DNA from: an uncultured Rubrobacteraceae bacterium
GTDB lineage: Bacteria > Actinomycetota > Rubrobacteria > Rubrobacterales > Rubrobacteraceae
Reading direction: 5' to 3'
DNA: 59,743 nucleotides
Assembly (NCBI GenBank): GCA_902806085.1
Contig: CADCVH010000127.1
Span: 1-59,743, forward strand
This document shows positions 41,183 through 59,743 of this stretch, one piece after another. How positions within the stretch are numbered: position 1 is the first letter of the stretch; each line of letters opens with the position of its first letter. The position numbers and the translations under genes were made by a program. The notes below the pieces were generated by a model. That model saw only the letters and a program-made list of their open reading frames with translations. It was not told the DNA's origin and ran no database searches.

Positions 41183-41222
41183 GCCGCGCCTCCTATCTGG
41201 TCGGTCTTTCGGGTCGTCCCGG

Positions 41223-41459: not shown

Positions 41460-41486
41460 TTCTTGTTCCTCCCGCTCCGTGGCCTA

Positions 41487-42260: not shown

Positions 42261-42371
42261 GCGCCTCCCTTCGGTCGGCAGGTTATGAGGCTCCAGATTC
42301 CTAGGTCTTATAATCGAACCTCTAGATACACCAACCACCTCCTCAAAACCTCGAACCCGGAACCTTACGCC

Positions 42372-44256: not shown

Positions 44257-44294
44257 GCGGTGGCACCCCCTTTTCCCCTCGTAAAAGTCACCGA

Positions 44295-44323
44295 ATAGTA
44301 CCTACGCCGGAATTTTGGGTCAA
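44295..44323 (-). promoter_or_regulatory. pxp operon promoter
   Basis: On the minus strand TTGACC (44323-44318), 17 bp, TACTAT (44300-44295). Its -35 overlaps the -35 of the divergent bioY promoter, so the two may exclude each other. Confidence 0.7.
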
Positions 44324-44343
44324 CGAATGCTAAAAGGTTATCG
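44315..44343 (+). promoter_or_regulatory. bioY promoter
   Basis: TTGGGT (44315-44320), 17 bp, TTATCG (44338-44343). Predicted initiation is near 44350, just before ATG 44353. No BirA-type operator was recognised. Confidence 0.45.
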
Positions 44344-44352
44344 TAAATACGG

Positions 44353-44910
44353 ATGAGGAGGAGAGCTTTGAACGTAGCCGCGATGACCCGGGTGGCGCTA
44401 ATGGCCGCCTTCACCGCCGTGGCGGCCCAGATCACCATCCCGCTCGAGCCCGTTCCCTTCACGCTGCAGGTGCTGGCCGTCGTTCTCACCGGGCTGTTGC
44501 TGGGGCCGCGCTACGGCGCCCTGGCGATGGGGGTCTATCTGCTCGTCGGCGCCATGGGCGTCCCGGTCTTCGCCGGGTTCCGCGGCGGTCTCGGCATCGT
44601 CTTTGGCGACACGGGTGGTTACCTGCTCGCCTATCCGCTGGCCGCCGCCCTCGCCGGCCTCGCCGCCGGGGCCACCGCGAACTCGCCCCGCCGGCGGGCG
44701 CTCGTCGTGGGCTTCCTGTGGGGCAGCGCGGCGCTGGCCGTGATCTACGCGCTCGGGGCCACCTGGCTCGCGATCCTCGCCGGCCTCTCCCCGGGCGCGG
44801 CCCTGGTCGCGGGCGTCCTGCCTTTCGTTCCCTTCGACCTGATCAAAGTCGGGCTCGCCACCCTCGTCGCCGTCGCCGTCGCCCCGGCGATCGCCACGTC
44901 ACGGGCCTAG
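44353..44910 (+). CDS. bioY: Biotin transporter BioY (S component)
   Basis: 185 aa with six hydrophobic segments. The N-terminal AAFTAVAAQITIPLEPVPFTLQ and GGLGIVFGDTGGYLLAYPLA are BioY signatures for biotin binding. It works alone or with an ECF energising module, which is not in the window. The start is uncertain: ATG 44353 fits a leaderless mRNA, while GGAGGAGAG within the frame would serve TTG 44368. It is upstream of accC by about 60 bp, a logical pairing of biotin uptake with biotin-dependent carboxylase. Confidence 0.93.
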   Translation: MRRRALNVAAMTRVALMAAFTAVAAQITIPLEPVPFTLQVLAVVLTGLLLGPRYGALAMGVYLLVGAMGVPVFAGFRGGLGIVFGDTGGYLLAYPLAAALAGLAAGATANSPRRRALVVGFLWGSAALAVIYALGATWLAILAGLSPGAALVAGVLPFVPFDLIKVGLATLVAVAVAPAIATSRA

Positions 44911-44971
44911 AGAGGCGTGGAGGTAGCTGCGGGACTAGTATGATGGCCTGATCTACAGGAAGGTAAACCCT

Positions 44972-46309
44972 ATGTTCGAGAAGGTGCTGATCGCCAACCG
45001 GGGGGAGATCGCGCTAAGGGTCGTCCGCGCCTGCCAGGAGCTCGGCGTCCCGGCGGTCGCCGTCTACTCCGACGCCGACGAGACGGCCCTCCACGTCCGC
45101 CACGCCGACGAGTCGGCCAACATAGGTCCTCCGGCGGCGGGTAAGAGCTACCTGAACGCGGAGCACCTGATCGAGGCGGCAAAGGAGACGGGCGCCGACG
45201 CTATTCACCCTGGCTACGGCTTTCTCGCCGAGAACGCCGCTTTCGCGAGGGCGGTAACGGACGCCGGGATAAAGTTCATCGGCCCCTCGGCGGAGGCCAT
45301 CGAGAAGCTTGGGGACAAGTCCGCCGCCCGGCGGCTGGCACAGGAGGCGGACGTGCCCGTCGTGCCCGGCTCGGACAACGTCTCCTCGGCGGACGAGGCC
45401 GTTGGCACGGCGGAGGAGATAGGGTACCCCGTCATGATCAAGGCCGCGGCCGGCGGCGGGGGCCGCGGCATCCGGGTGGCCGAGAACGAGGAGGAGTTGC
45501 GCGAGGCGGTGCAGGCCGCCAAGCGCGAGGCGCAGTCCGCCTTTGGCGACGGGACGCTTTATCTGGAGAAGTTCCTCGCGGGCCCGCGCCACGTAGAGGT
45601 GCAGGTCATGGCGGACCACGAGGGCAACGCCATCCACCTCTACGAGCGCGAATGCTCGATGCAGCGCCGCCGCCAGAAGGTGCTGGAGGAGTCCCCCTCG
45701 CCCGGCATAAGCCCCGAAACGCGTGAGAAGATGTGCGGGGCGGCCGTCCGGCTCGCCCGCGAGGCGGATTACGCCAACGCCGGGACGGTCGAGTTCCTGG
45801 TCGAGGGAGACGGGTTCTACTTTATCGAGATGAACACGCGCATACAGGTCGAGCATCCGGTAACGGAGATGCTGACGGGCGTAGATTTGGTCAAAGAGCA
45901 GATCAGGGTCGCGGCCGGCGACCCCTTGAGCCTGAAACAGGAAGACGTCCCCTTCGTCGGGCACTCGATAGAGTTCCGCGTCAACGCGGAGGACCCGGCC
46001 AACGGCTTCATGCCCTCCCCGGGCGAGGTCACGTTCCTCGAAGTGCCGGGCGGCCCCGGCGTCCGCGTGGACTCGGCGGTGTACGCTGGCTACAAGATAC
46101 CGCCGTTCTACGACTCGATGGTTGGCAAGCTCATAGTCTGGGCGCTGACCCGGGACGAGGCCGTAAGCCGCGCCCGCCGCGCCCTGCGCGAGTACCGGCT
46201 CGAAGGGATCAAGACGACCATCCCCCTCCACCTGCGGTTGCTAGAAGACAAAGCTTTCCTGTCAGGCGACTACCACACGGGGTATCTGGAAGAGTTGCTG
46301 CAGGAGTAA
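44972..46309 (+). CDS. accC: Biotin carboxylase
   Basis: 445 aa. VLIANRGEIALRVVRAC, HPGYGFLAENA, the ATP-grasp loop AAAGGGGRGIRV, ECSMQRRRQKV and EMNTRIQVEHPVTE are all present. It carboxylates biotin on a carrier using ATP and bicarbonate. The gene lies next to bioY and divergent from an operon containing a lone biotin carrier and PxpB/PxpC, so it may serve that system rather than, or as well as, acetyl-CoA carboxylase. ATG 44972 follows GGAAGG. Confidence 0.95.
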   Translation: MFEKVLIANRGEIALRVVRACQELGVPAVAVYSDADETALHVRHADESANIGPPAAGKSYLNAEHLIEAAKETGADAIHPGYGFLAENAAFARAVTDAGIKFIGPSAEAIEKLGDKSAARRLAQEADVPVVPGSDNVSSADEAVGTAEEIGYPVMIKAAAGGGGRGIRVAENEEELREAVQAAKREAQSAFGDGTLYLEKFLAGPRHVEVQVMADHEGNAIHLYERECSMQRRRQKVLEESPSPGISPETREKMCGAAVRLAREADYANAGTVEFLVEGDGFYFIEMNTRIQVEHPVTEMLTGVDLVKEQIRVAAGDPLSLKQEDVPFVGHSIEFRVNAEDPANGFMPSPGEVTFLEVPGGPGVRVDSAVYAGYKIPPFYDSMVGKLIVWALTRDEAVSRARRALREYRLEGIKTTIPLHLRLLEDKAFLSGDYHTGYLEELLQE

Positions 46310-46380
46310 CGCGAAGACTTCGGGGTCTCGTGGTCCGAGTATACTTCCGTGGGACCGGGCGAGACATCGGAGGGCTTTCC

Positions 46381-46947
46381 GTGCAGAAGGAGACGCGCGA
46401 GGTCACGCGGCGACGCTTCACCGTCCAGGAGTACCACAGGATGGCCGAGGCCGGGATACTCCACGAGGACGACCGGATCGAGCTTATCGACGGGGAACTG
46501 GTCGAGATGTCCGCCATAGGCACCAGGCACTTCTCCTGCGTGAACCGGCTGAATCACCTGCTCGTGGGAAGTGTGGGCGACGACGTCATCGTCAGCGTCC
46601 AGAACCCGGTTAGGCTGAACGATTATTCGGAGCCACAGCCGGACGTGGCCCTGATCTGGACCAGGGACTACAACGAGTCGCTCCCCACGCCGGAGGACGT
46701 GCTGCTCCTGATCGAGGTCTCCGACACCACCCTCGCCTACGACCGGGGGCTAAAGCTCTCGCGGCGCTACGCCCGGGCCGGCATCCCGGAGGCCTGGATC
46801 GTGGACCTCCAGGGCGAGAAGATCGAACATCACACCGGCCCGTCCGGTGACCGTTACCGGCACGCCGAAAAGGTCCGCCGGGACGAGACGCTCAACTCCG
46901 CCGCGCTGCCCGGACTGGAGGTCCGCGCCGGCGACGTGCTCGGCTAG
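46381..46947 (+). CDS. Uma2-family (DUF820) restriction-endonuclease-like protein
   Basis: 188 aa from GTG 46381. The PD-(D/E)xK core is visible: IELIDGELVEMSAIG, PQPDVALIW, LLLIEVSDTTLAYDRGLKL and YARAGIPEAWIVDL. These putative nucleases are abundant in cyanobacteria and actinobacteria and often act as orphan genes; biological role is not established. It lies between accC and gabT with a large palindrome on its 3' side. Confidence 0.9.
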   Translation: MQKETREVTRRRFTVQEYHRMAEAGILHEDDRIELIDGELVEMSAIGTRHFSCVNRLNHLLVGSVGDDVIVSVQNPVRLNDYSEPQPDVALIWTRDYNESLPTPEDVLLLIEVSDTTLAYDRGLKLSRRYARAGIPEAWIVDLQGEKIEHHTGPSGDRYRHAEKVRRDETLNSAALPGLEVRAGDVLG

Positions 46948-47016
46948 GGAAGCGCCGGAAGGGGAAGGGCCTCCAACCGTCCCACCCCGAACGCCGGCAC
47001 CCGCCATCTGGAACCC

Positions 47017-47048
47017 GTAGGGGGGCGCTTCGCGAAGCGCCCCCCTAC
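47017..47048. terminator. 32-bp perfect palindrome between convergent genes
   Basis: GTAGGGGGGCGCTTCG (47017-47032) is followed directly by its reverse complement (47033-47048). The 16-bp arms, with no spacer, can form a very stable hairpin on either strand. It lies 14 bp from the gabT stop and about 70 bp from the Uma2 stop, consistent with a bidirectional terminator. Confidence 0.75.
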
Positions 47049-47062
47049 AACGGCCGCTCCGC

Positions 47063-48403
47063 TTACGCCACCGAATCCACGGCCCGACCCAGTATGGCGA
47101 GTCCCTCTTCGAGCTCGTCGTCGGCGATGTTCAGCGGCATGAGGGTGCGGATGCAGTTGCTGTACTGGCCGGCGGTAAGCAGGAGCAGGCCCTCCTGCAA
47201 GGCGGCCTGGACTATCTTGGCGTTGCGCTCCTTGTCCGGGGTCTTGCTCGCGGCGTCGGTGACGAACTCCATGGCGGCCATCGGGCCCAGGCCGCGGACG
47301 TCGCCGACAAAGTCGGGGTGCCTCTCCTGGATGTCGCGCATGGCGGACATGACCTTCTCGCCGAGGGCGTTCGCCTGGGTCAGCAGGTCCTCCTCCTCGA
47401 AGGTGTCGAGGACGGCGAGCGCGGCGGCGCAGGCTATGGGGTTGCCGCCGTAGGTGGTGCCGAGGCCGCCGGCGTGGACGGAGTCCATTATCTCGGCCCT
47501 GCCGGTGACGCCGGCTATGGGCAACCCGCCGCCCATGCTCTTGGCCGTGGTCATGATGTCCGGCTCCACCCCGGAATGCTCTATCGCGAACATCTTGCCC
47601 GTCCTGCCGAAGCCGGTCTGGACCTCGTCCACGATCATCACGATACCGTGCTCGTCGCACAGCTCCCTGAGTTGGCGCAGGTAGAAGTCCGGGAACGGGA
47701 TGAACCCGCCCTCACCGCTCACCGGCTCGACGATGATCGCCGCCACGCTGCTCGGGTGAACGGTGCTCACGAACGCCTTCTCTATGGACCCGAAGCAATC
47801 GCCCTGGCAGCCGCCGGAGCAATCCCTGCCTGCCGGACACCTGTACGTATACGGCGACGGCACCCGGTAGACCTCGGGAACGAACGGGCCGAAGCCCTTC
47901 TTGTACGGATCGGTCTTGCCGGTGAGCGTCATCGCGAGCATGGTCCTGCCGTGGAAGGAGTTCTCGAAGGCGATGACGCCGGGCCGCCCGGTGTAGTAGC
48001 GCGCGATCTTGACGGCGTTCTCGACAGCCTCGGCCCCGGAGTTGACGAAGAACGACCGCTTCTCGAAGTCCCCCGGCACGAGCGCGTTGAGCCTCTCCGC
48101 GAGCTCGATGTACTCCTCGTACTCCGTGACGTAGAAGCAGGTGTGGGTCACCTGCCCGGCCTTCTCCCTGACCGCCTCGACCACGCGGGAGTTCGCGTGC
48201 CCGATGTTCATGACGCCGATGCCGCCACCGAAGTCTATGAACGTGTTGCCGTCCACGTCGGTCAGCAACGCGCCCTTCGCCTCCTCGGCGAACATCGGGG
48301 TGGCTATGCCCACGCCCGACGTTACTGCCTTGTGCCGCCGCTCCATCAACGCCCGGCTCTTCGGCCCGGGTATCTCCGTCTTGATCCTCGCGGAATCGAG
48401 CAT
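47063..48403 (-). CDS. gabT: 4-aminobutyrate aminotransferase
   Basis: 446 aa class III PLP enzyme. DFGGGIGVMNIGHANS, SFHGRTMLAMTLTGK, MIVDEVQTGFGRTGKMFA and the PLP Lys in MTTAKSMGGGLP are present. It transfers the GABA amino group to 2-oxoglutarate, giving succinate semialdehyde for GabD. A four-Cys loop (CPAGRDCSGGCQGDC) sits near 47800-47845; cysteine pairs in this region bind an Fe-S cluster in mammalian GABA transaminase, but that role here is unproven. ATG 48403 follows AAGAGGTGG. Confidence 0.94.
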   Translation of the reverse strand: MLDSARIKTEIPGPKSRALMERRHKAVTSGVGIATPMFAEEAKGALLTDVDGNTFIDFGGGIGVMNIGHANSRVVEAVREKAGQVTHTCFYVTEYEEYIELAERLNALVPGDFEKRSFFVNSGAEAVENAVKIARYYTGRPGVIAFENSFHGRTMLAMTLTGKTDPYKKGFGPFVPEVYRVPSPYTYRCPAGRDCSGGCQGDCFGSIEKAFVSTVHPSSVAAIIVEPVSGEGGFIPFPDFYLRQLRELCDEHGIVMIVDEVQTGFGRTGKMFAIEHSGVEPDIMTTAKSMGGGLPIAGVTGRAEIMDSVHAGGLGTTYGGNPIACAAALAVLDTFEEEDLLTQANALGEKVMSAMRDIQERHPDFVGDVRGLGPMAAMEFVTDAASKTPDKERNAKIVQAALQEGLLLLTAGQYSNCIRTLMPLNIADDELEEGLAILGRAVDSVA

Positions 48404-48465
48404 CCTCGCCACCTCTTCCTGTCGGCCTCTCTCGTTCCAGTATACCCATAAGGGTGGACCGGAAC

Positions 48466-49929
48466 CTACGTCCCGGCGATGCCGCCGAGCGAGACGTACT
48501 TCGTGTCCAGGTACTCCTCGATGCCCTGGTGCCCGCCCTCGCGCCCGACGCCGCTCTCCTTCAGCCCGCCGAACGGGGCCTGCGCCGTCGAGGGCATCCC
48601 GTCGTTCGCCCCGATGATCCCGTACTCCAGGCCCTCCGCGAGCCGGAAGACCCGCCCCACGTCGCGGGTGAAGTAGTAGGCGGCGAGCCCGTATACCGTG
48701 GCGTTGGCCCGCCGGACTACCTCTTCTTCCGTGTCGAAGGGCATGATCGCCGCCACCGGCCCGAACGTCTCCTCTTTGGCGACGAGCATCGAGTCGTCGG
48801 CCCCGAGGAGCACCGTCGGGGCGTAGAAGCTGCCGCCGTCTTGCCCGTTCACCTTCTCGCCCCCGAGGGCCACCGTCGCGCCCTTCTCCCTCGCGTCGGC
48901 GACGTGGCGCTCGACCTTCTCTACGGCCTTCGGCTCGATGAGCGGGCCGACCTCGACGCCCTCCTCCATCCCGTCCCCCACCCTCATCGCGGCCATCTTC
49001 CCGGTGAGCTTCTTCGCGAACTCGTCCAGGACGCCGCGCTGGACGAATACGCGGTTGGCGCAGACGCAGGTCTGGCCCATGTTGCGCATCTTGGAGACGA
49101 GGGCGCCCTCGACGGCCGCGTCTGTATCGGCGTCGTCGAAGACTATGAACGGGGCGTGGCCGCCGAGCTCCAGGGAGAGGCGCTTCATGGTGTCGGCGGA
49201 CTGCTTCATCAGGAGCTTGCCGACCTCTGTGGAGCCGGTGAAGGAGAGCTTGCGCACGCGCCTCTCCTCCATGATCGGGGCGGTGACGGCCGCCGGGTCC
49301 GTGCCGGCTAGGACCGAGAGGACGCCCTTCGGTAGGCCCGCCTCCTCGAAGATCTTCGCCATCTCCAGGGCGGAGAGGGGGGTGAGCTCGGAGGGCTTTA
49401 TGACCTGCGTGCAGCCGGCGGCGAGGGCGGGGCCGAGCTTGCGCGTGATCATGGCCGCCGGGAAGTTCCACGGCGTGATCGCCGCCGTCACCCCCACCGG
49501 GCGCTTGATGACCATTATCCTCTTGCCCGGGGCGCTCGCCGGGACCGTCTCGCCGTACACGCGCCGCGCTTCCTCGGCGAACCACTCGATAAACGAGGCG
49601 GCGTAGACGATCTCGCCGCGTGACTCCGCCAGCGGCTTGCCCTGCTCCAGGGTCATCACGGTAGCGAGGTGCTCTTTTCTTTCGTGCATCATGCGCGCGG
49701 CCTCGCGCATGATCCCGGCCCGGTAGGCCGCGGTTGTCGCGGCCCACTCCTGCTGGACGGCCGCGGCGGCGTCTATCGCCCGACGCGTCTCCTCGCGGCC
49801 GGCGTCGGGGAGGGTGGCGATGGTCTCGTTGTTGGCGGGGTTCGTGACGCCGAAGGTCGCGCCGGAGTGGGCGGCACCCGTCCATTCGCCTGCGACGAAG
49901 AGTTTTTCGATCGTCTCGGTCTTTATCAT
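48466..49929 (-). CDS. gabD: Succinate-semialdehyde dehydrogenase
   Basis: 487 aa aldehyde dehydrogenase. TPWNFPAAMITRKLGPALAA, KLSFTGSTEVGKLL, the general base in LSLELGGHAP, and the catalytic Cys in GQTCVCANR are clear; the second Cys two residues later is typical of the GabD group. It oxidises succinate semialdehyde to succinate with NAD(P). It precedes gabT by 62 bp and follows the symporter by 25 bp in the same operon. Confidence 0.95.
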   Translation of the reverse strand: MIKTETIEKLFVAGEWTGAAHSGATFGVTNPANNETIATLPDAGREETRRAIDAAAAVQQEWAATTAAYRAGIMREAARMMHERKEHLATVMTLEQGKPLAESRGEIVYAASFIEWFAEEARRVYGETVPASAPGKRIMVIKRPVGVTAAITPWNFPAAMITRKLGPALAAGCTQVIKPSELTPLSALEMAKIFEEAGLPKGVLSVLAGTDPAAVTAPIMEERRVRKLSFTGSTEVGKLLMKQSADTMKRLSLELGGHAPFIVFDDADTDAAVEGALVSKMRNMGQTCVCANRVFVQRGVLDEFAKKLTGKMAAMRVGDGMEEGVEVGPLIEPKAVEKVERHVADAREKGATVALGGEKVNGQDGGSFYAPTVLLGADDSMLVAKEETFGPVAAIMPFDTEEEVVRRANATVYGLAAYYFTRDVGRVFRLAEGLEYGIIGANDGMPSTAQAPFGGLKESGVGREGGHQGIEEYLDTKYVSLGGIAGT

Positions 49930-49954
49930 CTTAACCTCCAGAGGGGGTATGCGC

Positions 49955-51385
49955 CTAAGTTGTACCCTGGCCCGTCATCCTCTGCTCCCAGGCGGACGCC
50001 TCCCGCTCGGAGGCCCCCGGCGTGAGGAGGCTCACGATGACGAAGGTGACGAGGCTCGCCAGGAGGCCGCCGTAGATCGGGCTGTTGGCGAGCAGGCCCT
50101 GCCAGGCCATGAGCCCCACCACGACCACGCCGCCGACGAGCATCGAGGCCAGCGCCCCGGCGCCCGTCGCGCGCCTCCAGAACAGCGCGCCGATTATGGG
50201 GACGAAGAGGGCGCCGACCAGCAGGTCGTAGGCGACCGTCAGGGCGCCCACGACGTCGCTGACGATCACCGAGATGACGAGCACCACCACCCCGACCAGC
50301 AGCGTCGCCAGCCGGCTCGCGTTGTACTCGCCGGCCCCGGCGTGGTCCTCGCGCCGGAAGAGGCCGGCGTAGATGTCGTTGGCGAGGATGGTGGACGAGG
50401 CGAGCAGGCCGGCGCTCGCGGTGGACATCACGGCGGCGAGGGCCGCGGCGAGCACCAGGCCGAGGACCCCGGTCGGCAGGACCTCGGCCGCGACGCGGGC
50501 GAAGGCGTTGTCCGAGTTTGGGAGGTTGGGAATCAGGACGCGGGCGGCCGTCCCGATCAGGGCCCCCACGAGGCCGTATAGCAAACAATAGAGGCCCGCG
50601 ACGACGCCGCCCCACCGGGCGACCGCGGGGCTTCTGGCCGTAAAGACCCGCTGCCAGATGTCCTGCCCGATCATGAGCCCGAAAAAGAACAGCAGAAAGT
50701 AGGTGAAGATCGTGAGCCTGCCGATGGAGAAGGGGTCGAAGTACGAGCCCGGCAACTCCCCGGCCATCCCGGAGAAGCCGCCCGCCCCCGCGACGCTCAG
50801 GGGCAGCAGGATCAGGAATATGCCGACGGTCATCACGCAGAACTGCAGAAAGTCCGTCAGGGTGATCGACCACATGCCGCCAAGCGCCGAGTAGGCGACG
50901 ACCACGCCGCCGGCGATAAGGATGGCGAGCGTCGGCGGCAGCCCGAGAACGACGTCGAAGACCGAGCCGACGGCGATGGTCGAGGTCACCGCGATCATGA
51001 GCGCGTAGGTCGCCACGATGATCGCGGAGATAAGCCGCGACGAGGCCCCGTAACGGATGCCAAGCATCTCAGACACCGTGTAGACGCCGAGCCGGCTCAG
51101 GCGCGTGGAGAGCAGGATGCCGAGCGCGATGATCCCGAGCCCGATCATGAACACCAGCCACATCCCCGAGATACCGTACTCGTAGCCCAAAGAGACGCTG
51201 CCAATGGTAGACGCCCCCCCGAGCACCACCGCGCTCAGGGTCCCGACGTACAACGCCGGCCCGAGCCGCCTCCCGGCTACGAGGTAATCCTCCGTGCTGC
51301 CGGCCCGCCTGAGCCCCCAGTACCCTGCCCCGAGCATCGCGGCGAAGTAGAGGCCGAGGACCAGGTAGTCCAGGGCGCTACCCAT
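49955..51385 (-). CDS. Sodium:solute symporter (SSS family)
   Basis: 476 aa with about 13 hydrophobic segments. SSS features include DYLVAGRRLGPALYVGTLSA near the N-terminus, GGMWSITLTDFLQ and the AALAAVMSTASAGLLASSTI helix with the sodium-site Ser/Thr. ATG 51385 follows GGAGGAAG and overlaps the ureohydrolase stop by 8 bp. In this operon it probably imports GABA, a guanidino compound or a related amine; the substrate cannot be read from sequence. Confidence 0.92.
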   Translation of the reverse strand: MGSALDYLVLGLYFAAMLGAGYWGLRRAGSTEDYLVAGRRLGPALYVGTLSAVVLGGASTIGSVSLGYEYGISGMWLVFMIGLGIIALGILLSTRLSRLGVYTVSEMLGIRYGASSRLISAIIVATYALMIAVTSTIAVGSVFDVVLGLPPTLAILIAGGVVVAYSALGGMWSITLTDFLQFCVMTVGIFLILLPLSVAGAGGFSGMAGELPGSYFDPFSIGRLTIFTYFLLFFFGLMIGQDIWQRVFTARSPAVARWGGVVAGLYCLLYGLVGALIGTAARVLIPNLPNSDNAFARVAAEVLPTGVLGLVLAAALAAVMSTASAGLLASSTILANDIYAGLFRREDHAGAGEYNASRLATLLVGVVVLVISVIVSDVVGALTVAYDLLVGALFVPIIGALFWRRATGAGALASMLVGGVVVVGLMAWQGLLANSPIYGGLLASLVTFVIVSLLTPGASEREASAWEQRMTGQGTT

Positions 51386-52334
51386 CCCGGTTCTTCCTCC
51401 GGAGCGCGATGAGACCCAGAAAGTCGTGGACGATGTTGGCCGCGACGAGCGCCGTGACCTGCCCGGGCCCATCGTAGGCCGGGCAGACCTCGACCACGTC
51501 GCAGCCGACGATGTCGACGCCGGCGAGCCCGCGCACGAACTCCTGCGCCTCGCGGCTCGTGTAGCCCCCGATCTCCGGCGTGCCTGTGCCGGGCGCGTAG
51601 GCCGGGTCGACGAAGTCTATGTCGAAGGAGACGTAGGCCTTCGCGTCGCCTACCCGCTCCTTGACCCGCTCTATGACGGCCGGAACGCCGAGCTCGCGCA
51701 CCTCGTCGGTGGGCACGAGGTCGAAGCCCATGTCTTTCGCGTCGTCCCAGTCGCGCTCGTCGTAGATGGAGCCGCGCATCCCGACCTGGATCGAGCGCGA
51801 AGGGTCGAGCAGGCCCTCCTCGACGGCCCGCCTGAACGGCGTGCCGTGGGTGTGCTTCTGGCCGAAGTAGGCGTCCCAGGTGTCCGGGTGGGAGTCGAAC
51901 TGCACGAGGGCTAAAGGGCCGTGGACGGTAGCGGCGGCGCGGAGCTCCGGGAGGGCTATGGAGTGGTCGCCGCCGAGGACTATCGGGACGACGCCGGCGC
52001 GGTGGATCGGTTCGAGCCCTTCGGCGATCTTCTCGTAGCTCTCCCGGATATAGCCCGGCACGACCGGCACGTCGCCGTAGTCGATCACGGAGAGGTGGTC
52101 GAAGATGGTTACGCCGAGGCCGGAGTTGTGGCGGCGCAAGAGGTGGGAGACGCTCCTTATGGCCTCGGGCCCGAAGCGGGCGCCGACGCGGAACGTGGCG
52201 CCCGTGTCGAAGGGGGCGCCCACTATGGCGGCGTCGGCGTTTTCGAGGTCCCTGTTGTTGGGCAGGCGCATGAACGTGCGCACGTCCGAGAAGCGCGGCG
52301 TCGCGAAGGAGTCGGCGGGTTCGTACCGGGTCAA
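51378..52334 (-). CDS. Agmatinase/guanidinobutyrase-type ureohydrolase
   Basis: 318 aa arginase-fold Mn enzyme. Metal motifs are VLGGDHSI, FDSHPDTWD and SFDIDFVDPAYAPGTGTPE. It releases urea from a guanidino substrate. Agmatinase would give putrescine; guanidinobutyrase would give GABA, the substrate of GabT in the same operon. The operon therefore favours 4-guanidinobutyrate (inference), although the motifs do not distinguish the two. It starts 18 bp after the permease gene. Confidence 0.9.
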   Translation of the reverse strand: MTRYEPADSFATPRFSDVRTFMRLPNNRDLENADAAIVGAPFDTGATFRVGARFGPEAIRSVSHLLRRHNSGLGVTIFDHLSVIDYGDVPVVPGYIRESYEKIAEGLEPIHRAGVVPIVLGGDHSIALPELRAAATVHGPLALVQFDSHPDTWDAYFGQKHTHGTPFRRAVEEGLLDPSRSIQVGMRGSIYDERDWDDAKDMGFDLVPTDEVRELGVPAVIERVKERVGDAKAYVSFDIDFVDPAYAPGTGTPEIGGYTSREAQEFVRGLAGVDIVGCDVVEVCPAYDGPGQVTALVAANIVHDFLGLIALRRKNRDG

Positions 52335-52352
52335 GCGGGTCCCTCTTTCCGT

Positions 52353-53813
52353 CTAGTTTCCTCGGGCAGCCTCTTGTCGGGCGGTCGTCTCCTCGTTGAT
52401 CACCGCGTCGGGGGCCCTCTGCGGCGGCCCGAAGGCGCGACGCAGGAAGTAAGCTACAAGGATCACGCCGAGGCTGATGAGGCTGGCGATGATCTGGGGC
52501 CGCAGGCCCTCTATAAAGAACATCGCGATGAGCACGGCGAGGATGCCGAAGATCGAGAGGTACGTCAGCCACGGGTAGAACCACATCCTCAACTGGAGGA
52601 GCTCCGGGTTGTCGCGCTCCAGGCGGCGGCGCATCACGAGCTGGGAGACGGCTATCAGCAGGTAGACGAACAGGGCGATGGCGCCGGAGGCGTTGATGAG
52701 CCAGGTGAACACGTCCTCAGGGAAAAAGTAGAAGATAGCCACGGAGACGTAGGCGAAGACGGTGCCGGCCAGGATCGCCCAGATCGGCACCCCGCGCCTG
52801 GTCGTGTTTGTCAGGAACCCCGGCGCGTCGTTGTGGCGGGTCAGCGCGAAGAGCATCCTGCTCGTCGTGTACAGGCTGGAGTTCAGGACGGAGAGCACGG
52901 CGGTCAGCACGACGAGGTTCATGATCAGGGGCGCGTAGGGTATCCCCATCTCCCCGAAGGCGAGGGTGAACGGGCTCTTGAGCACGTCGTCGGTAAAGCC
53001 GGTGTCCCACGGGACTATCGCCGCGACGAAAAAGACGGAGATGACGTAGAAGATAAGTACCCGGTAGATGACCGCGTTGGTCGCCCGGGCGACGTTCCGT
53101 CCCGGCTCGTCGGACTCGGCGGCGGCTATCGTCACGATCTCGGCCCCGACGAACGCGAAGATCACGGTCGCAACCCCGCTGAACATCGCCAGCGGCCCGT
53201 TCGGGAAGAACCCGCCTTCGGCGTAGAGGTTGGTCAGGCCAGGCGAGCTCCCGCCCGGCCACAGCCCGATCACGAACAGGGCCGCGAGGCCTATAAAGAT
53301 AAGTATCGCCACGACCTTTATCCCGGCGAACCAGAACTCGAACTCCCCGTAAGACCCGACGGAGTAGAGGTTGGTCGCCGTGAGCAGCAAGAGCAGGGCC
53401 AGTGCCATCACCCATGGCGGTATCCCCGGTATGTACTGCCCCAATATTCCGGCCGCAACCGTCGCCTCGAACCCGACGACGATGGCCCAGAAGTACCAGT
53501 AGAGCCACCCGATCGCGAACCCTGCCCAGTTGCCAAGGGCCATCCGCCCGTAGTCGGAGAAGGACCCGACCGAGGGCCGGGCCACGGCCATCTCCCCGAG
53601 CATCCGCATGATGAGGATGAGGAGGCCCCCCGTGAGCGCGTACGTGAGTATGGTCGCGGGACCCGCCTGGTTGAGTATCGGGCCCGTGCCGACGAAGAGG
53701 CCGGCGCCGATGATCCCGCCGAGCGAGATCATGGTCATGTGACGCCGCTTTAAGCCGGCTTGAAGCTTGTTCTGCCCCTCTCGGGTCTGCTTGCCCGCGG
53801 TCGCCTCGGCCAT
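52353..53813 (-). CDS. APC-family amino acid permease (GabP-like)
   Basis: 486 aa with 12 hydrophobic segments. The first helix motif SLGGIIGAGLFVGTG, then GEMAVARPSVGSFSDYGRMA, and FAFVGAEIVTIAAAESDEP, are typical of the amino acid transporter branch that includes GabP and AnsP. ATG 53813 follows GAGAGGGAAG. It leads the ureohydrolase-SSS-gabD-gabT operon, which supports GABA or guanidinobutyrate uptake. Confidence 0.92.
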   Translation of the reverse strand: MAEATAGKQTREGQNKLQAGLKRRHMTMISLGGIIGAGLFVGTGPILNQAGPATILTYALTGGLLILIMRMLGEMAVARPSVGSFSDYGRMALGNWAGFAIGWLYWYFWAIVVGFEATVAAGILGQYIPGIPPWVMALALLLLLTATNLYSVGSYGEFEFWFAGIKVVAILIFIGLAALFVIGLWPGGSSPGLTNLYAEGGFFPNGPLAMFSGVATVIFAFVGAEIVTIAAAESDEPGRNVARATNAVIYRVLIFYVISVFFVAAIVPWDTGFTDDVLKSPFTLAFGEMGIPYAPLIMNLVVLTAVLSVLNSSLYTTSRMLFALTRHNDAPGFLTNTTRRGVPIWAILAGTVFAYVSVAIFYFFPEDVFTWLINASGAIALFVYLLIAVSQLVMRRRLERDNPELLQLRMWFYPWLTYLSIFGILAVLIAMFFIEGLRPQIIASLISLGVILVAYFLRRAFGPPQRAPDAVINEETTARQEAARGN

Positions 53814-53920
53814 ACTTCCCCTCTCATCGACGCTCCATCCCCTCGGGCGCAGCTTACATGCTACGCCCGTTTCTGCACAACCCGGATGGAGGAGGGGCGC
53901 CGGCCGCGGCCTACCGCGGC

Positions 53921-55051
53921 CTACCGCGCCCCGCTGAGGAGCTTCTGGGGGTCCGTGTACGGGAGGCCGTGGGCCTCGGCCACGGGTGCATGGACGAGCC
54001 CCCCATTAAGCGTCGAGAGGCCCTTGGCCAGGTTCGGGTCCTTCGCGACCGCCCCCTCAACACCCTCGTCGGCGATCCTGATCAGGTACGGCAGCGTCAC
54101 GCTCGTCAGCGCCAGCGTGGAGGTCCTCGCCACCGCCCCGGGTATGTTCGCCACGCAGTAGTGGACGACCCCCTCCTCAACGTAGGTCGGCTCGGAGTGG
54201 GTCGTCGGCCGGCTCGTCTCGAAGCACCCCCCCTGGTCGATGGCGATGTCCGCCACCACCGAGCCGTCCCGCATGGACGCGATCATCTCCCGGCTCACCA
54301 GCTTGGGCGCCTTGGCCCCCGCCACCAAGACCGCCCCTATCACCACGTCCGACTCCCTGACGTACTGGGCGGTCCTCGCCCGGTTCGGGATCACCAGGTC
54401 GACCCTCCCCTCGAAGATGTCGGAGAGGTACGCCAGCCTCTTGGGGTTGATGTCGAGCACCCTCACTATCGCCCGCATGCCCAGGGCTATCTTCGCCGCC
54501 TCGGTGCCGGAGATGCCCCCGCCGATGATGGTGACCTTCGCCGCCGGCGTCCCCGGCACGCCCCCGAGCAGGAGCCCCGCCCCGCCGTTGGGGCTTTCGA
54601 GGTGGTGGGCGGCGGCCTGCACGGCCATCCTGCCGGCCACCTCGCTCATCGGCGTCAAGAGGGGCAGGCTCCCGTCGGGCGTCTCGACGGTCTCGTAGGC
54701 CACCGCGTCGATCTTCTTGTCCATCAGGAACTCCGTGAGGCCCTTGTCGGCGGCTAAGTGCAGGTAGGTGAAGAGCTTCTGCCCCTCCCTGAAGCGGTCG
54801 TACTCCTCCGGCACGGGCTCCTTGACCTTCACGATGAGGTCCGCGGCCCCGAAGACCTCCTCGGGGCCGTCCACGAGGCGCGCCCCCCCCGCCGCGTACT
54901 CCTCGTCTGCGAAACCGGCGCCCCTCCCGGCCCCGGACTGGACCACCACCTCGTGCCCGTGGTGGACGAGCTCAGCCACCCCGTCCGGCTGCATGGAGAC
55001 GCGACCCTCCATGTCCTTGATCTCCTTCGGTACCCCCACCACCGTCGCCAT
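53921..55051 (-). CDS. ald: Alanine dehydrogenase
   Basis: 376 aa. VGVPKEIKDMEGRVSMQPDG is the N-terminus; catalytic Lys lies in LIVKVKEPVPEE and His in FTYLHLAAD; the NAD loop is IIGGGISGTEAAKIA; the C-terminal AIDQGGCFETSRPTTHSEP is characteristic. It interconverts alanine and pyruvate plus ammonia. It is divergent from the MerR-XRE-cupin gene with a dyad between. About 110 bp separates its stop from the permease start, so it is probably a separate transcript. Confidence 0.95.
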   Translation of the reverse strand: MATVVGVPKEIKDMEGRVSMQPDGVAELVHHGHEVVVQSGAGRGAGFADEEYAAGGARLVDGPEEVFGAADLIVKVKEPVPEEYDRFREGQKLFTYLHLAADKGLTEFLMDKKIDAVAYETVETPDGSLPLLTPMSEVAGRMAVQAAAHHLESPNGGAGLLLGGVPGTPAAKVTIIGGGISGTEAAKIALGMRAIVRVLDINPKRLAYLSDIFEGRVDLVIPNRARTAQYVRESDVVIGAVLVAGAKAPKLVSREMIASMRDGSVVADIAIDQGGCFETSRPTTHSEPTYVEEGVVHYCVANIPGAVARTSTLALTSVTLPYLIRIADEGVEGAVAKDPNLAKGLSTLNGGLVHAPVAEAHGLPYTDPQKLLSGAR

Positions 55052-55110
55052 GCCGCTTCCTTTCCCTAGAAGAACGCGTGATTTTTCTACCTTATAACAA
55101 CGCTACTATA

Positions 55111-55123
55111 AACCTGCAAGGTT
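55111..55123. promoter_or_regulatory. Dyad in the ald promoter region
   Basis: AACCT-GCA-AGGTT. On the minus strand it lies between TTGATA (55131-55126) and TATAGT (55110-55105), a 15-bp spacer. A second possible ald promoter is TTGCAG (55119-55114), 16 bp, TTATAA (55097-55092), where the dyad covers the -35. MerR-family proteins bind such dyads between promoter elements. Confidence 0.45.
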
Positions 55124-55168
55124 GCTATCAAAAGGGTCTATGGCGGGGTTCGTTTGGGCGGGGATGAT

Positions 55169-55197
55169 TTGCTTTTTCGCCGAGTGATTACAATAAT
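55169..55197 (+). promoter_or_regulatory. Promoter of the MerR-XRE-cupin gene
   Basis: TTGCTT (55169-55174), 17 bp, AATAAT (55192-55197). Initiation is predicted at about 55203, exactly the GTG start codon, so the mRNA is probably leaderless. Confidence 0.5.
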
Positions 55198-55202
55198 CGT
55201 TC

Positions 55203-56048
55203 GTGAATGCGTGGGCCTTGACGGGAGGCGGATTGGCGGCGAGTGGTAGTTCGGTTGGGTTCTCCATAGGCGAGGTTTCGCAGGCCGTTGGGCTTGCGCC
55301 GCAGACCTTGAGGTTGTGGGAGAGGGAGCGCCTGATCCGGCCGCGCAGGACGGATCGGGGGTACCGGGTCTACACGGAGCTGGACGTGGACCGGCTGCGG
55401 GAGATCAAGCACCTGAGGAAGGTCGAGGGCCTGAACTTCGCCGCCATCCGCAAGCAGATGGGCGCCGCCGAGACCTCCGAGGGCGCGAACGGCCACCCGC
55501 CGGAAGACCCCGCGGAGGCGCCGGGAGAGCGGCTGCGGCGGTTGCGCGTCAAGGCCCACAAGACGCTCAAGGAGGTCTCCGAGGCCACGGGCCTCTCGAT
55601 CTCGTTCATCTCGGCGCTGGAGCGCGGCGGCTCGGGGGCTTCGGTGGCGTCGCTCAGGCGTTTGGCGGAGGCCTACGGGGTGACCATGCGGGAGCTCTTC
55701 GGGGCCGACTTGGAAGCGGCAACACCGCTCGTGCAGAGCGCGGAGCGCCCCGTCATGCAGTGGGACAACGGCGTGCGCTTCGAGGAGATGGCCTCCGGGG
55801 AGAAGGTGATGGACCCCTCCTACCTGCGGGTGCCCGCCGGGGCGGGCAGCGAGGGGTTCTATTCGCACACGGGCGAGGAGTTCATTTACGTGATCTCCGG
55901 CCACCTCCTCGTGGAGCTCAAGGACCAGGGGACGTTCCGGATGGCCCCCGGCGACACCCTCTACTTCCCCTCCACCACCTCCCACCGCTGGTGGGCCGAA
56001 GAGGAGCCCGTGGAAGCGGTCTACGTCAACACCCCGCCGACGTTTTAG
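55203..56048 (+). CDS. MerR-XRE-cupin triple-domain regulator
   Basis: 281 aa from GTG 55203. Residues about 19-90: a MerR HTH (FSIGEVSQAVGLAPQTLRLW, RGYRVYTELDVDRL). Residues about 108-163: an XRE HTH (LRRLRVKAHKTLKEVSEATG, ISFISALERG, SLRRLAEAYGV). Residues about 200-280: a cupin (GEEFIYVISGHLLVELKD, PGDTLYFPSTTSHRWWAE). XRE-cupin proteins such as PuuR control putrescine and GABA catabolism in Escherichia coli. The added MerR head gives two DNA-binding domains in one chain. Its neighbours are ald and the GABA operon, plausible targets. Confidence 0.92.
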   Translation: MNAWALTGGGLAASGSSVGFSIGEVSQAVGLAPQTLRLWERERLIRPRRTDRGYRVYTELDVDRLREIKHLRKVEGLNFAAIRKQMGAAETSEGANGHPPEDPAEAPGERLRRLRVKAHKTLKEVSEATGLSISFISALERGGSGASVASLRRLAEAYGVTMRELFGADLEAATPLVQSAERPVMQWDNGVRFEEMASGEKVMDPSYLRVPAGAGSEGFYSHTGEEFIYVISGHLLVELKDQGTFRMAPGDTLYFPSTTSHRWWAEEEPVEAVYVNTPPTF

Positions 56049-56186
56049 GCGGTTCCCGGGGCGCCCCCACACCCGCGTGGGGAGACCCCCGGTCCCGGAC
56101 CGCCGGCGTTTGGCGGCTGTTCTTTCGGGGGGCCGCGGGCAGCATGGGGGGCGTTCAAGCAGTCCTACAACTTTTTGGAGGGGATC

Positions 56187-58019
56187 ATGGACACCGACCG
56201 TTACCTCGATGCGTTGCTTTCGGTGCCGGTGCTGTTCGGCCCGGAGGTGTCCCCGGACGGGAGTTGGGTGGCGTGGAGCTGGTCGCGGCTCGGGCCGGCC
56301 GCGGACGTTTTCGCCGCCCCGATCGACGGGTCTTCGCCGCCGGTCCGCCTTACGCAGACGTCGGAGGGCGACACGATGGTGGCGTCCTGGACGCCGAGCG
56401 GGGAGGCGGTCCTGGTCACGCAGGACACGGACGGGGACGAGCGGGAGCGGCTCTACCGGGTGAGGCTGGCGAATCCAGGCGTGATGGAGCCCCTGACCGG
56501 GCCGGGCCCGAACTACTACCTGCGCGGCGGCCAACTGCACCCGAACGGGCGCTGGCTCGTCTACTCGGCCAACCTCGACGCGGAGAGCGGCGAGGAGATC
56601 GAGGCCGACCGGCTGTACCGGCAGGACCTCGAGAACGGGGAACTCCTGGCGCTGGCCCGGCCCGAAAAGGGCAGCATCCCGGGGCCCGAGCTGAACGGTC
56701 CCGGGACCCACGTCCTCTACCGGCGCAACGACCTCGACCCTGCGGGGCAGCAGGTGTGGCTGGTGGATATCGAGGGGCGGGGGGACCGCGAGATCCTGAA
56801 CTTCGGGACTCGGGCGAAGGTCTCGGCCTCGTGGTTCCCAGACGGGCGACGCGTCCTCTTCGTGGCGGAGGCCGGGTCCCACAGGCGGGTAGGCGTCTGG
56901 GACGTGGATGGTGGGGAGGTGCGGTGGCTGCTGGACGACCCCGGGCGCAACGTCGAGCAGGCCTTCGTTCCCCCGAACGGTGGGTCGGTGGTCGTCGTGG
57001 GCGTGGAGGGGGCCGGTATCAGGGCCTCGCTGCTCGACCCGGAGACGGGCGCGGAGTCCGCGCCGCCGCCGGTGCCGGGCAACCTGGTGCCGCTGGCACG
57101 GGCCGCCGGCGGCGGTTGGGCCTGCAAGCACTACGACGCCCGCCACCCCGTCGACCTGATCCGCCCCGACCCTGAGGGCGGCGCGCCGGTTAGCCTCACG
57201 GGCCTTCGGGACCGGGCCTCCCTCGACACGGACCGGCTCGTCGCGGCGGAGGACTTCGGGTGGCGGTCGGTGGACGGGCTGGAGGTCCAGGGCTGGCTGT
57301 ACCGTTCTTCGGGGGCCGGTACGATAGTCCTCGTCCACGGCGGGCCCACGAGCCACGCCGAGGACCGCTTCAACGCCGAGATACACTACCTCGTCTCGCG
57401 GGGCTTCCACGTTTTGACGCCCAACTACCGCGGGAGCACCGGGTTCGGTCTTCCTTTCCAGGACTCGATCAAGGAGGACGGCTGGGGCGGGCGGGAGCAG
57501 GAGGACATCCGGTGCGGGATCGAGGCCCTCATCGACGCCGGCATCGCGCAACCGGGCCGCGTCGGCGTCACGGGCACCTCCTACGGCGGTTACTCGGCGT
57601 GGTGGGCGATCACGCACTACACCACGGACCTCGTCGCAGCCGCCGCCCCCGTCTGCGGCATGACCGACCTGGTCGTCGACTACCACGCCACCCGCCCCGA
57701 CCTTCGTCCCTACAGCGAAGAGATGATGGGCGGCACCCCGGAAGAGGTCCCGGACCGCTACCGCGAACGCTCCCCCATAAACTCCGTCAAGGACATCCGG
57801 GGCAGGCTCCTCATAGTCCAGGGCATGCAAGACCCGAACGTGACCCCCGAGAACGTGGACGTCGTCGTAAAGGCCCTGGGCCGGAATGGCATCCACTACG
57901 ACCTGCTCACCTTCGAAGACGAGGGCCACGGCATCGCCCGCCCCTGGAACCTGAAGGTCCTCTACCCGCGCCTGGCGAACTTCTTCGAGTCGGCGTTCGC
58001 GCGAGACCGTCCGGCCTGA
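56187..58019 (+). CDS. S9-family prolyl oligopeptidase / acylaminoacyl-peptidase
   Basis: 610 aa from ATG 56187 with GGAGGGG upstream. The N-terminal 350 residues form a beta-propeller with repeated SPDGSWVAW, TPSGEAVLV, FPDGRRVLF-type blades. The C-terminal alpha/beta hydrolase has the nucleophile in VTGTSYGGYSAWW, Asp in QGMQDPNVTPE and His in DEGHGIARP. No signal peptide, so it is probably cytoplasmic and degrades short peptides. It is downstream of the MerR-XRE-cupin gene by about 140 bp. Confidence 0.94.
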   Translation: MDTDRYLDALLSVPVLFGPEVSPDGSWVAWSWSRLGPAADVFAAPIDGSSPPVRLTQTSEGDTMVASWTPSGEAVLVTQDTDGDERERLYRVRLANPGVMEPLTGPGPNYYLRGGQLHPNGRWLVYSANLDAESGEEIEADRLYRQDLENGELLALARPEKGSIPGPELNGPGTHVLYRRNDLDPAGQQVWLVDIEGRGDREILNFGTRAKVSASWFPDGRRVLFVAEAGSHRRVGVWDVDGGEVRWLLDDPGRNVEQAFVPPNGGSVVVVGVEGAGIRASLLDPETGAESAPPPVPGNLVPLARAAGGGWACKHYDARHPVDLIRPDPEGGAPVSLTGLRDRASLDTDRLVAAEDFGWRSVDGLEVQGWLYRSSGAGTIVLVHGGPTSHAEDRFNAEIHYLVSRGFHVLTPNYRGSTGFGLPFQDSIKEDGWGGREQEDIRCGIEALIDAGIAQPGRVGVTGTSYGGYSAWWAITHYTTDLVAAAAPVCGMTDLVVDYHATRPDLRPYSEEMMGGTPEEVPDRYRERSPINSVKDIRGRLLIVQGMQDPNVTPENVDVVVKALGRNGIHYDLLTFEDEGHGIARPWNLKVLYPRLANFFESAFARDRPA

Positions 58020-58465
58020 TCCAGAGTCCCCACTTTGCGTTCGGCGCAGCTGGTGTTCTCCGGCAGCCTGTCGGGAAAAGGTTGCGAGACGAAGAGGAAG
58101 ACGCCCTGCGGGTAATCGAGTTTCGCGCCCGCCCCGGGTTTCTGCACGACCACGCGGCCCGGTTCCATGCTGCCCTGCCTCTTGCCGTAAACATACCCCA
58201 GGAATTCTTCCCGCAGCAGGACCCGGCAAGCCCGCCCGACCTCCATGTCAACAACGGCGGGTACGGACGTGGGGCTCAGGTTCGGGGCGCACTGGGCACC
58301 GGCGTCGCGTTCCTCAGCCTCGACCAACGCCATCGTAGTCCCGGCCGGTGTGGACGACGCGTTCTGTTCCCGCCGGGAAGCGTCCCCGGCGCGCCCTGTC
58401 GAGAACAGGACTACCGCGGTCGCGACCATCAGGACACTCTTCGTCTGCCGCGCATCCTTCGTCAA
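57962..58465 (-). CDS. PASTA-domain protein with signal-like N-terminus
   Basis: Up to 167 aa; start uncertain (TTG 58465 or ATG 58429, neither with a strong ribosome site). A hydrophobic stretch (VLMVATAVVLFSTG) resembles a signal peptide. The middle is a PASTA domain: VPAVVDMEVGRACRVL then KPGAGAKLDYPQGVFLFVS. PASTA domains bind cell-wall muropeptides or lipid II in kinases and penicillin-binding proteins; here it is alone and would be exported. It overlaps the S9 peptidase 3' end by 58 bp antisense. Confidence 0.65.
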   Translation of the reverse strand: MTKDARQTKSVLMVATAVVLFSTGRAGDASRREQNASSTPAGTTMALVEAEERDAGAQCAPNLSPTSVPAVVDMEVGRACRVLLREEFLGYVYGKRQGSMEPGRVVVQKPGAGAKLDYPQGVFLFVSQPFPDRLPENTSCAERKVGTLDQAGRSRANADSKKFARRG

Positions 58466-58524
58466 AAGGAGAGGCCGGCGCCCCGAAGGACGCCGGCCCG
58501 GTATGGGGAGTATTTCCGCCTGCT

Positions 58525-59073
58525 TTAGCGGCGCACCCTCTCGCAGTCGCTGGCGACCTTGTCGCCCCTGTCGGCCTCGACGGTGTCGCGGCCGTCGCCG
58601 CAGAAGATCACGTCGCGGGCGTCGTTGCCGTTGGCCGCCAGGATGGTGTCGTTGCCCGCGCCGCCCAAGAGGGTGTCGGCCGACCTGTCGATGCCGAACT
58701 CGCCGGCGTCGTCGAAGAGGTAGTCGGCGCCGTTGCCGCCGCTGATCCTGTCCGCGCCGAGGCCGCCCAGGATGTAGTCGTCGCCCCCGCCGCCAAAGAG
58801 GGTGTCCTGCCCCTTGTCGCCGTTGTCCTGGCCGCCCTTGGGGGCCGAGCCGCGGATGTCGTCTTTGCCGGCGCCGCCGAGGACGGTGTCCTCGCCAAAG
58901 CCGCCGTTTAGCCAGGAGTCGTTGCCGCCGAGGCCCTTGATCGTGTCGTCCCCAGCACCCCCGGTGAGCGTGTCCACCCCCGCCGTGCCGCCCATCGTAG
59001 CCGCGAAGGCCGCGCCCGCCGAAAGAACCACCATCATCGCCACCGCCGCCAGAACCTTGCCCATCCGCCCCAT
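58525..59073 (-). CDS. Secreted RTX-type calcium-binding repeat protein
   Basis: 182 aa from ATG 59073 with AAGGAGG upstream. Signal peptide: KVLAAVAMMVVLSAGAAFA. The rest is a run of GGxGxD nonapeptides (LTGGAGDDTIKGLGGND, VLGGAGKDDIRG, LFGGGGDDYILGGLGAD, LLGGAGNDTI), the calcium-binding parallel beta-roll. The C-terminus ends DKVASDCERVRR with a paired Cys earlier (FCGDGRD). No hydrolase domain is fused and no type I secretion genes are near, so export is probably by Sec. Function unknown. Confidence 0.9.
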   Translation of the reverse strand: MGRMGKVLAAVAMMVVLSAGAAFAATMGGTAGVDTLTGGAGDDTIKGLGGNDSWLNGGFGEDTVLGGAGKDDIRGSAPKGGQDNGDKGQDTLFGGGGDDYILGGLGADRISGGNGADYLFDDAGEFGIDRSADTLLGGAGNDTILAANGNDARDVIFCGDGRDTVEADRGDKVASDCERVRR

Positions 59074-59162
59074 GCCGCCCTCCTTCTCGTCTTCGCCCCC
59101 GGCCTTCCCGGTTGCCGTATTTGGAACTCTAAAGGGGCCACGTAACGTCCTGGCGACGACCG

Positions 59163-59206
59163 GGTAACGCTTCGGTCACGCTTGCATAACACTTTGGTAA
59201 CAAAAA
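59163..59206. promoter_or_regulatory. Four-unit 11-bp direct repeat (OmpR-family-type operator)
   Basis: Units GGTAACGCTTC, GGTCACGCTTG, CATAACACTTT and GGTAACAAAAA follow each other with an 11-bp period. Written as GTAAC-n6-GTCAC-n6-ATAAC-n6-GTAAC, this has the spacing of actinobacterial GlnR or PhoP boxes. It lies between the RTX gene and the last aminotransferase gene; no regulator is encoded nearby. Confidence 0.6.
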
Positions 59207-59301
59207 CGGCCCCGCTCCGGCCGCCGGGATAAGATCTCCCAAACAAAACCCTCCCCCAGTCCAAAGGACCGGCCACCCCTCCCATATATACTCTTCCCGT
59301 C

Positions 59302-59330
59302 TTGATCGGCTTACAGTAACTGTGTAGTAT
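59302..59330 (+). promoter_or_regulatory. Promoter of the last aminotransferase gene
   Basis: TTGATC (59302-59307), 17 bp, TAGTAT (59325-59330), with a leader of about 40 bases to the ATG at 59378. The direct-repeat operator ends about 95 bp upstream. Confidence 0.65.
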
Positions 59331-59377
59331 TCGTGAAGGACAAGGAGCTGGCCGCATCCGGCCTGAGGAGGTATCGC

Positions 59378-59743
59378 ATGGACGTGATGAGGGGTCTGGG
59401 GGAGCACGGCGAGAGCACGCCGCTCGCCGGCGTCGAAAACCTTATGTTGCACTTCACCCCGTACGCGGAGGACTGGTCCAGGCTGCCGGTCATCGTCTCA
59501 GGCGAAGGGTCCTACGTCACCGACGACAGGGGCCGCACCTACATAGACGGGCTGGCCGGCCTGTTCACGACGCAGGTCGGGCACGGCAGGGCGGAGCTCG
59601 CGGACGTTGCGGCGAAGCAGATGAAGGAGCTCGGGTTCTTCCCCAACTGGAGCTTCCAGCACCCGAGGAGTTTGGAACTAGCCGCCAAGATAAGCGAGAT
59701 AGCCCCCGGGGACCTCAACAGCACCTTCTTCGTCTCCTCGGGC
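59378..59743 (+). CDS. Class III aminotransferase, N-terminal part
   Basis: 122 codons are present; the gene continues past the window. ATG 59378 follows GAGGAGG. The start LMLHFTPYAEDW and YIDGLAGLFTTQVGHGRAEL, then FFPNWSFQHPRSLELAAKI, are typical of omega-amino-acid:pyruvate or putrescine-type aminotransferases of the aspartate-aminotransferase (class III) family. The PLP lysine lies outside the window. Likely substrates are beta-alanine, putrescine or related amines, which would fit the nearby GABA genes (inference). Confidence 0.85.
   Translation, partial: MDVMRGLGEHGESTPLAGVENLMLHFTPYAEDWSRLPVIVSGEGSYVTDDRGRTYIDGLAGLFTTQVGHGRAELADVAAKQMKELGFFPNWSFQHPRSLELAAKISEIAPGDLNSTFFVSSG

Follow-up and report, generated by a model that had tools for sequence, protein, structure and literature searches.

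A MerR-XRE-cupin regulator and its predicted operator beside GABA and polyamine genes in Rubrobacteraceae

In PuuR of E. coli and in PauR and PsdR of Pseudomonas, an HTH_3 domain is followed by a Cupin_2 domain at the C-terminus, the gene lies beside its targets, and palindromic sites in core promoters serve polyamine/GABA or peptide genes. The Pseudomonas XRE-cupin proteins are local repressors which bind core promoters next to the genes encoding them, with amine, amino-acid or peptide targets, and PsdR controls dipeptide use (PMC7901475). The window analyzed here, the whole stretch of 59,743 nucleotides, encodes a regulator (REG) with the same HTH_3-Cupin_2 order, for which sites are likewise predicted in core promoters, both its own and those of the catabolic genes next to it. 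REG differs from these proteins in an extra N-terminal MerR-type winged helix and in the presence of alanine dehydrogenase (ald) in the predicted regulon. Orthology to PuuR was rejected, since the equivalog model NF007408 scored REG at 39.2 bits against a cut-off of 211.

With the MerR family (HspR, CueR, EcmrR), REG shares the MerR_1 winged helix and its invariant DNA-contact residues, but it has neither the coiled-coil dimerization helix nor a MerR effector domain nor promoters with 19-20-nt spacers. GlnR and TnrA of Bacillus recognize TGTNA-N7-TNACA, a 5-7-5 layout, and carry a glutamine-synthetase-sensing tail. Both of them, and BldC of Streptomyces, resemble REG in having a MerR-like head without the coiled coil (PMC5859096). 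However, the predicted half-sites of REG are TTRCA/TGYAA, and an XRE-cupin half takes the place of the glutamine-synthetase-sensing tail; BldC binds direct repeats head-to-tail, whereas the predicted cross-phylum site of REG is better read as an inverted repeat. Actinobacterial control of GABA use is described for the PucR-type GabR of Corynebacterium glutamicum (PMC7652997), although this protein family is unrelated to REG.

Domain architecture and distribution of the regulator

The first-pass annotation had placed MerR, XRE and cupin domains in one protein of 281 residues starting at GTG 55203. A Pfam search of 55203-56048 (+ strand) recovered all three domains over their curated cut-offs: MerR_1 at residues 20-86 (E 1.4e-22), HTH_3 (XRE) at residues 111-165 (E 6.2e-15), and Cupin_2 at residues 208-275 (E 1.5e-14). 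The three-domain observation was upheld, with one correction: translation probably begins at the downstream TTG (Table 1). This start is favored because a GGGAGG lies upstream of it (55223-55228), the TTG is kept in many orthologues, and in the orthologue L024 (genome G018) an in-frame TAG falls between the two candidate starts.

All three domains recurred in identical order in eight divergent relatives, so neither coincidence nor a fusion created during assembly accounts for the architecture that had been put up for checking. In an alignment of 29 sequences, R21, W23, E24, R33, G37, R39 and Y41 in the helix and wing of the MerR domain never varied, which indicates that this head is under constraint; the DNA-contact residues on which the earlier proposal depended are thus present. 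The cupin residues H206, G208, E209, E210, D235 and H245 were equally unchanged, with two histidines and one glutamate of the classical metal site retained in REG, and the proteins ended in NTPPTF or a near variant. The same alignment contained no coiled-coil dimerization helix after the MerR winged helix, where a variable linker led directly to the XRE domain. No long helix followed the MerR domain in the AF2 model, which had low confidence there. The model (mean pLDDT 63.5, pTM 0.36) made the domains visible with an unusable arrangement, and its top fold match was the XRE-cupin structure 1y9q.

Orthologues of at least 69% identity were present in 22 of the 39 genomes of the class, the window's own included, and two genomes of another family in the phylum carried a full-length homologue of 35% identity. 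Plasmids contributed 124 records matching REG over at least 80% of its length, with 35-41% identity among the matches listed. These came mostly from Sinorhizobium, Shinella, Ensifer and Agrobacterium and, where annotated, were named merely "MerR family transcriptional regulator." The MerR-XRE-cupin architecture was not found described in the open-licence papers that the literature search covered. The family, common to soil actinobacteria and rhizobia, is apparently undescribed, and both the operator and the regulon given for it here are newly predicted. A widespread three-domain family with no more specific name in databases thereby gains a predicted operator, a predicted regulon and testable targets.

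Some members of the family had other neighbors. Genome G012 had one homologue, of 49% identity (L065 9147-10139), adjoining a carnitine dehydrogenase and a BCCT carnitine-type transporter, which suggests a ligand change within the family. In addition, a second rhizobial branch (L084, L187, L190) lay beside ETF, purU and folD rather than gabT-gabD, a neighborhood of the C1/N-methyl amine oxidation type.

Gene neighborhood and the predicted operator

As shown in Table 1, REG is flanked by ald, a GABA-permease-like transporter and genes for agmatinase, succinate-semialdehyde dehydrogenase (SSADH) and 4-aminobutyrate transaminase, in agreement with the GABA and alanine genes that had been reported beside it. 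The genes behind ald on the same strand follow one another at distances no greater than about 107 nt, and the permease-like gene probably lies behind the ald promoter. Relatives of the SSADH-type dehydrogenase were 52-56% identical to rhizobial TIGR01780 SSADH. From family names and context, the gene set reads as a route from agmatine through putrescine and GABA to succinate, together with polyamine uptake. In most orthologous loci ald was divergent from and next to REG, and the S9 peptidase gene was downstream. The aminotransferase gene, cut by the contig end in the window, was followed in most loci by a FAD oxidoreductase and/or an amine-oxidase-like flavoprotein and then PotA (TIGR01187 over cut-off); in L051 both flavoproteins were present, and the aminotransferase passed the NF005102 cut-off. 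A small protein with RTX calcium-binding repeats (58525-59073, - strand) lies between the S9 peptidase gene and the aminotransferase operon, as it does in L051 and L052. The Rfam search of 40000-59743 returned no known RNA family.

Table 1. Predicted operator sites and genes around REG in the window.
Feature	Coordinates	Strand	Remarks
Predicted operator 1, CTACTATAAACCTGCAA	55103..55119	+	Spans -35 and spacer of the putative ald promoter (- strand)
Predicted operator 2, TTACAATAATCGTTCGT	55188..55204	+	Covers the putative REG -10
Predicted operator 3, TTACAGTAACTGTGTAG	59311..59327	+	In the putative aminotransferase promoter
Possible operator 4, TTACGATAACCTTTTAG / TTACGATAACCTTTTAGCATT	44330..44346	-	Divergent pxpB-bioY gap; kept in G024 with one change
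REG, MerR_1-XRE(HTH_3)-Cupin_2 regulator	55233..56048	+	Likely start TTG 55233, 271 aa
Alanine dehydrogenase (ald), predicted target	53921..55051	-	Divergent from REG; TIGR00518 over cut-off
GABA-permease-like amino acid transporter	52353..53813	-	Top NCBIfam model TIGR01773 GABAperm at 558 bits, under its cut-off of 678
Agmatinase	51378..52334	-	TIGR01230 over cut-off
SSS-family sodium:solute symporter	49955..51421	-	Upstream gene limit provisional
Aldehyde dehydrogenase, succinate-semialdehyde dehydrogenase type	48466..49929	-	Name from similarity and context
4-Aminobutyrate transaminase	47063..48403	-	TIGR00700 over cut-off
S9-family peptidase	56187..58019	+	3' neighbor of REG
Class-III aminotransferase, predicted target	59378..59743	+	Start only, cut by contig end

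When the ald-reg intergenic regions were aligned, a conserved block stood out on either side. The ald-upstream and reg-upstream sets were then submitted to EM motif discovery one by one, and both returned the same motif, TTACARTAAnnnTKCAAG, with scores of 187 (ald) and 138 (reg; in this set the L060 stretch overlaps its own ald box) against 55-60 in shuffled sets. With leave-one-genome-out matrices built from the ald boxes alone, the reg box ranked second or third among 7,000-119,000 positions. Genome comparison gave the predicted operator as a 17-bp inverted repeat, TTRCA-N7-TGYAA, whose Rubrobacter form is TTACARTAAnnnTGYAA. The first-pass annotation had singled out two regions for footprinting: 55080-55203 contains predicted operator 1 and nearly all of predicted operator 2, of which the left half is intact and the right half weak in this genome, while in 53814-53920 neither the combined matrix nor the genome pattern had a match.

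The promoters were read by eye, and a simple sigma-70 scan of the region found none, the hexamers given here not passing it. On this reading, the ald promoter has a -35 TTGCAG (55114-55119) and a -10 TATAAG (55091-55096), the REG promoter TTGCTT (55169-55174) and AATAAT (55192-55197), and the aminotransferase promoter TTGATC (59302-59307) and TAGTAT (59325-59330), each with a 17-nt spacer. Across genomes, the putative aminotransferase promoters had TTGACC, TTGACT or TTGATC, 17 nt, and TAGNAT or similar, with the operator beginning within the spacer. The putative ald promoters had TTGNAN, 16 or 17 nt, and TATAAG after an extended -10; here the operator spanned both -35 and spacer. The motif stood in opposite orientations relative to these two promoters and is therefore not just a part of the promoter.

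Operator searches across genomes

When the intergenic region was masked, the best remaining match of the ald-plus-reg matrix was, in 13 of 13 genomes, the aminotransferase promoter. Matrices with permuted columns (n = 300) gave a mean of 1.46 and a maximum of 10, and none of the 300 reached 13. A first genome pattern (CAAG, two mismatches) did not outperform its reversed control and was replaced by one that did, TTACNRTAANNNTNYARNNNT. Allowing at most one mismatch, the latter had 3-5 matches per genome and 25 in total in six REG genomes, compared with five for the reversed control. Most of these lay inside the REG locus, and since the pattern was derived from REG-locus sites, the off-locus matches are the real test. 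They were found at SSS-SSADH and permease-GABA transaminase genes in G016, at FAD oxidoreductase genes in G014 and G015, at ald or aminotransferase genes on other contigs in G006 and G019, and in the pxpB-bioY gap in two genomes; the remaining ones had no evident link. One operator-like match in G000, TTACAGTAAATTTATATTACT (C84:50407-50427; L117 3408), lies about 20-40 nt 5' of a formate-tetrahydrofolate ligase gene and is possibly due to chance.

Six genomes without a close REG, among them G012 with just its 49% homologue, encode aminotransferase orthologues of 78-85% identity. No convincing site was found upstream of these; the best of them scored 11 bits, compared with 22-34 bits where REG is present. 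The REG-less G036 had one exact match to the operator pattern (C91:14255-14275, L130). The aminotransferase promoters of G001 and G012 (L145, L146), two genomes without a close REG, share another palindrome-containing block, TTGCAT-n-GTCGACG...ATAC, at most 120 nt upstream, as though a different regulator stood in for REG there.

It was in the plasmid relatives that the motif resolved as the inverted repeat. In the loci of the rhizobial and Embleya relatives, matches of at least 9 of 10 positions occurred at 11 of 3,268 positions upstream of the regulator and at 6 of 188,087 elsewhere, a comparison that carries no exact probability because the records are not all independent and some had been seen before the repeat was phrased. 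In five genera the divergent neighbor of the REG relative was gabT(-gabD), and in Shinella, Ensifer, S. meliloti and S. medicae the stretch separating the regulator from gabT contains TTGCATTTTTTCTGCAA. The Embleya homologue, retrieved afterwards, has TTACAGTAACGATGTAA upstream. There was no clear repeat upstream of the ETF-linked rhizobial members (Agrobacterium, S. chiapasense) or of those in Roseateles and Arthrobacter, and it was absent beside REG in genus g11 (L064, L069, L070). Since nearly the same repeat occurs in Rubrobacter, in Embleya and at rhizobial gabT-gabD, the family can be tested in the well-studied S. meliloti.

Proposed mode of action and reading of the repeat

We consider it rather likely that REG is a local repressor of the PuuR/PauR type, controlling an agmatine/putrescine/GABA/alanine regulon by promoter occlusion with release by a metabolite. 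A REG dimer, probably joined by the cupin domain, would bind the 17-bp repeat where it overlaps the core promoters of ald, of reg and of the aminotransferase-oxidase-potA operon; the gabP-agmatinase-SSS-gabD-gabT genes behind ald are probably subject to the same promoter overlap. RNA polymerase would be shut out of these promoters until a pathway metabolite in the cupin freed REG from the operator. The putrescine/GABA control suggested by the first-pass annotation is well supported by the predicted operators at ald, reg and the polyamine-type aminotransferase/oxidase/PotA operon and by the divergent rhizobial gabT-gabD. GABA is the favored ligand, ahead of putrescine, because gabT-gabD is the part common to Rubrobacter and rhizobia. 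The ligand need not be GABA, since some members of the family adjoin other catabolic genes, such as those for carnitine in G012. The place of ald in the predicted regulon is understandable because a pyruvate-using amine transaminase would yield alanine, which Ald would recycle to pyruvate.

MerR activators act on promoters with 19-20-bp spacers (PMC8113463), and the first-pass annotation had suggested such promoter-distorting activation. If REG untwisted its target promoters on ligand binding, with the XRE head just adding affinity, the invariance of the recognition-helix and wing residues over 29 sequences would be expected, and operator 3 does sit mostly inside the promoter spacer, where MerR operators are found. 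But the putative spacers measure 16-17 nt in virtually every genome, the coiled-coil helix is missing after the MerR domain, and in L059-L061 the position of the operator with respect to the ald -10 is shifted by 6-7 bp, which distortion should not tolerate. We set distortion aside on spacer length and the missing coiled coil and regard such an activator as quite unlikely. Given the spacer lengths and the precedent of the Pseudomonas local repressors, occlusion with metabolite release is the best reading.

Two further accounts share parts of this evidence. Because ald and the S9 peptidase gene are the commonest immediate neighbors of REG, and an XRE-cupin protein, PsdR, controls dipeptide use (PMC7901475), REG might chiefly control alanine or peptide use and sense alanine or a peptide, the polyamine/GABA genes being passengers. 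This is unlikely, since no operator was found directly before the S9 gene, the aminotransferase had its own predicted operator in 13 of 13 loci tested, off-locus predicted operators stood at GABA/amine genes, and the rhizobial relatives are paired with gabT-gabD. It is very unlikely that the repeat belongs to another regulator, for example a GlnR-type nitrogen regulator, with REG binding elsewhere: the repeat occurs upstream of REG itself across two phyla, it is missing from the aminotransferase promoters of REG-less relatives, and 3-5 matches per genome are too few for a global regulator, which should have many sites. What speaks for such a regulator is the 5-7-5 layout, shared with GlnR/TnrA sites. 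In addition, ald of Amycolatopsis is reported to be controlled by a GlnR that belongs to another family (PMC4140684).

Under the preferred reading of REG as a local repressor, the question is what a second, different DNA-binding head contributes to an XRE-cupin protein. Geometry does not assign the repeat to one head, because its 12-bp half-site spacing fits both GlnR/TnrA-type MerR heads and XRE dimers, whose half-sites are 12-14 bp apart (PMC12565409). Of the sequence relatives with a solved structure, GlnR was one of the best matches to the REG MerR head. The repeat was absent upstream of eight of nine XRE-cupin paralogues without a MerR head, and for this reason the MerR head is slightly favored as the reader of the outer repeat. 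In the Rubrobacter sites alone, an inner palindrome, TTACNGTAA (TTAC/GTAA), was better conserved than the outer one and may be the contact of the other head. We hold it possible, though doubtful, that the apparently undescribed cross-phylum family as a whole places its two heads on a composite operator (the outer repeat plus, in Rubrobacter, the inner palindrome), with the cupin as GABA/polyamine sensor, two-headed recognition and possible DNA bridging of paired sites. A direct-repeat scan put an 11-bp lag on top by a slight margin (3.01, next lag 2.61); the cross-phylum sites favor an inverted repeat over BldC-like direct repeats.

Possible operator 4 lies beside pxpB, which resembles a 5-oxoprolinase subunit gene, and through this site the control exerted by REG may extend to genes linked to 5-oxoproline or biotin.
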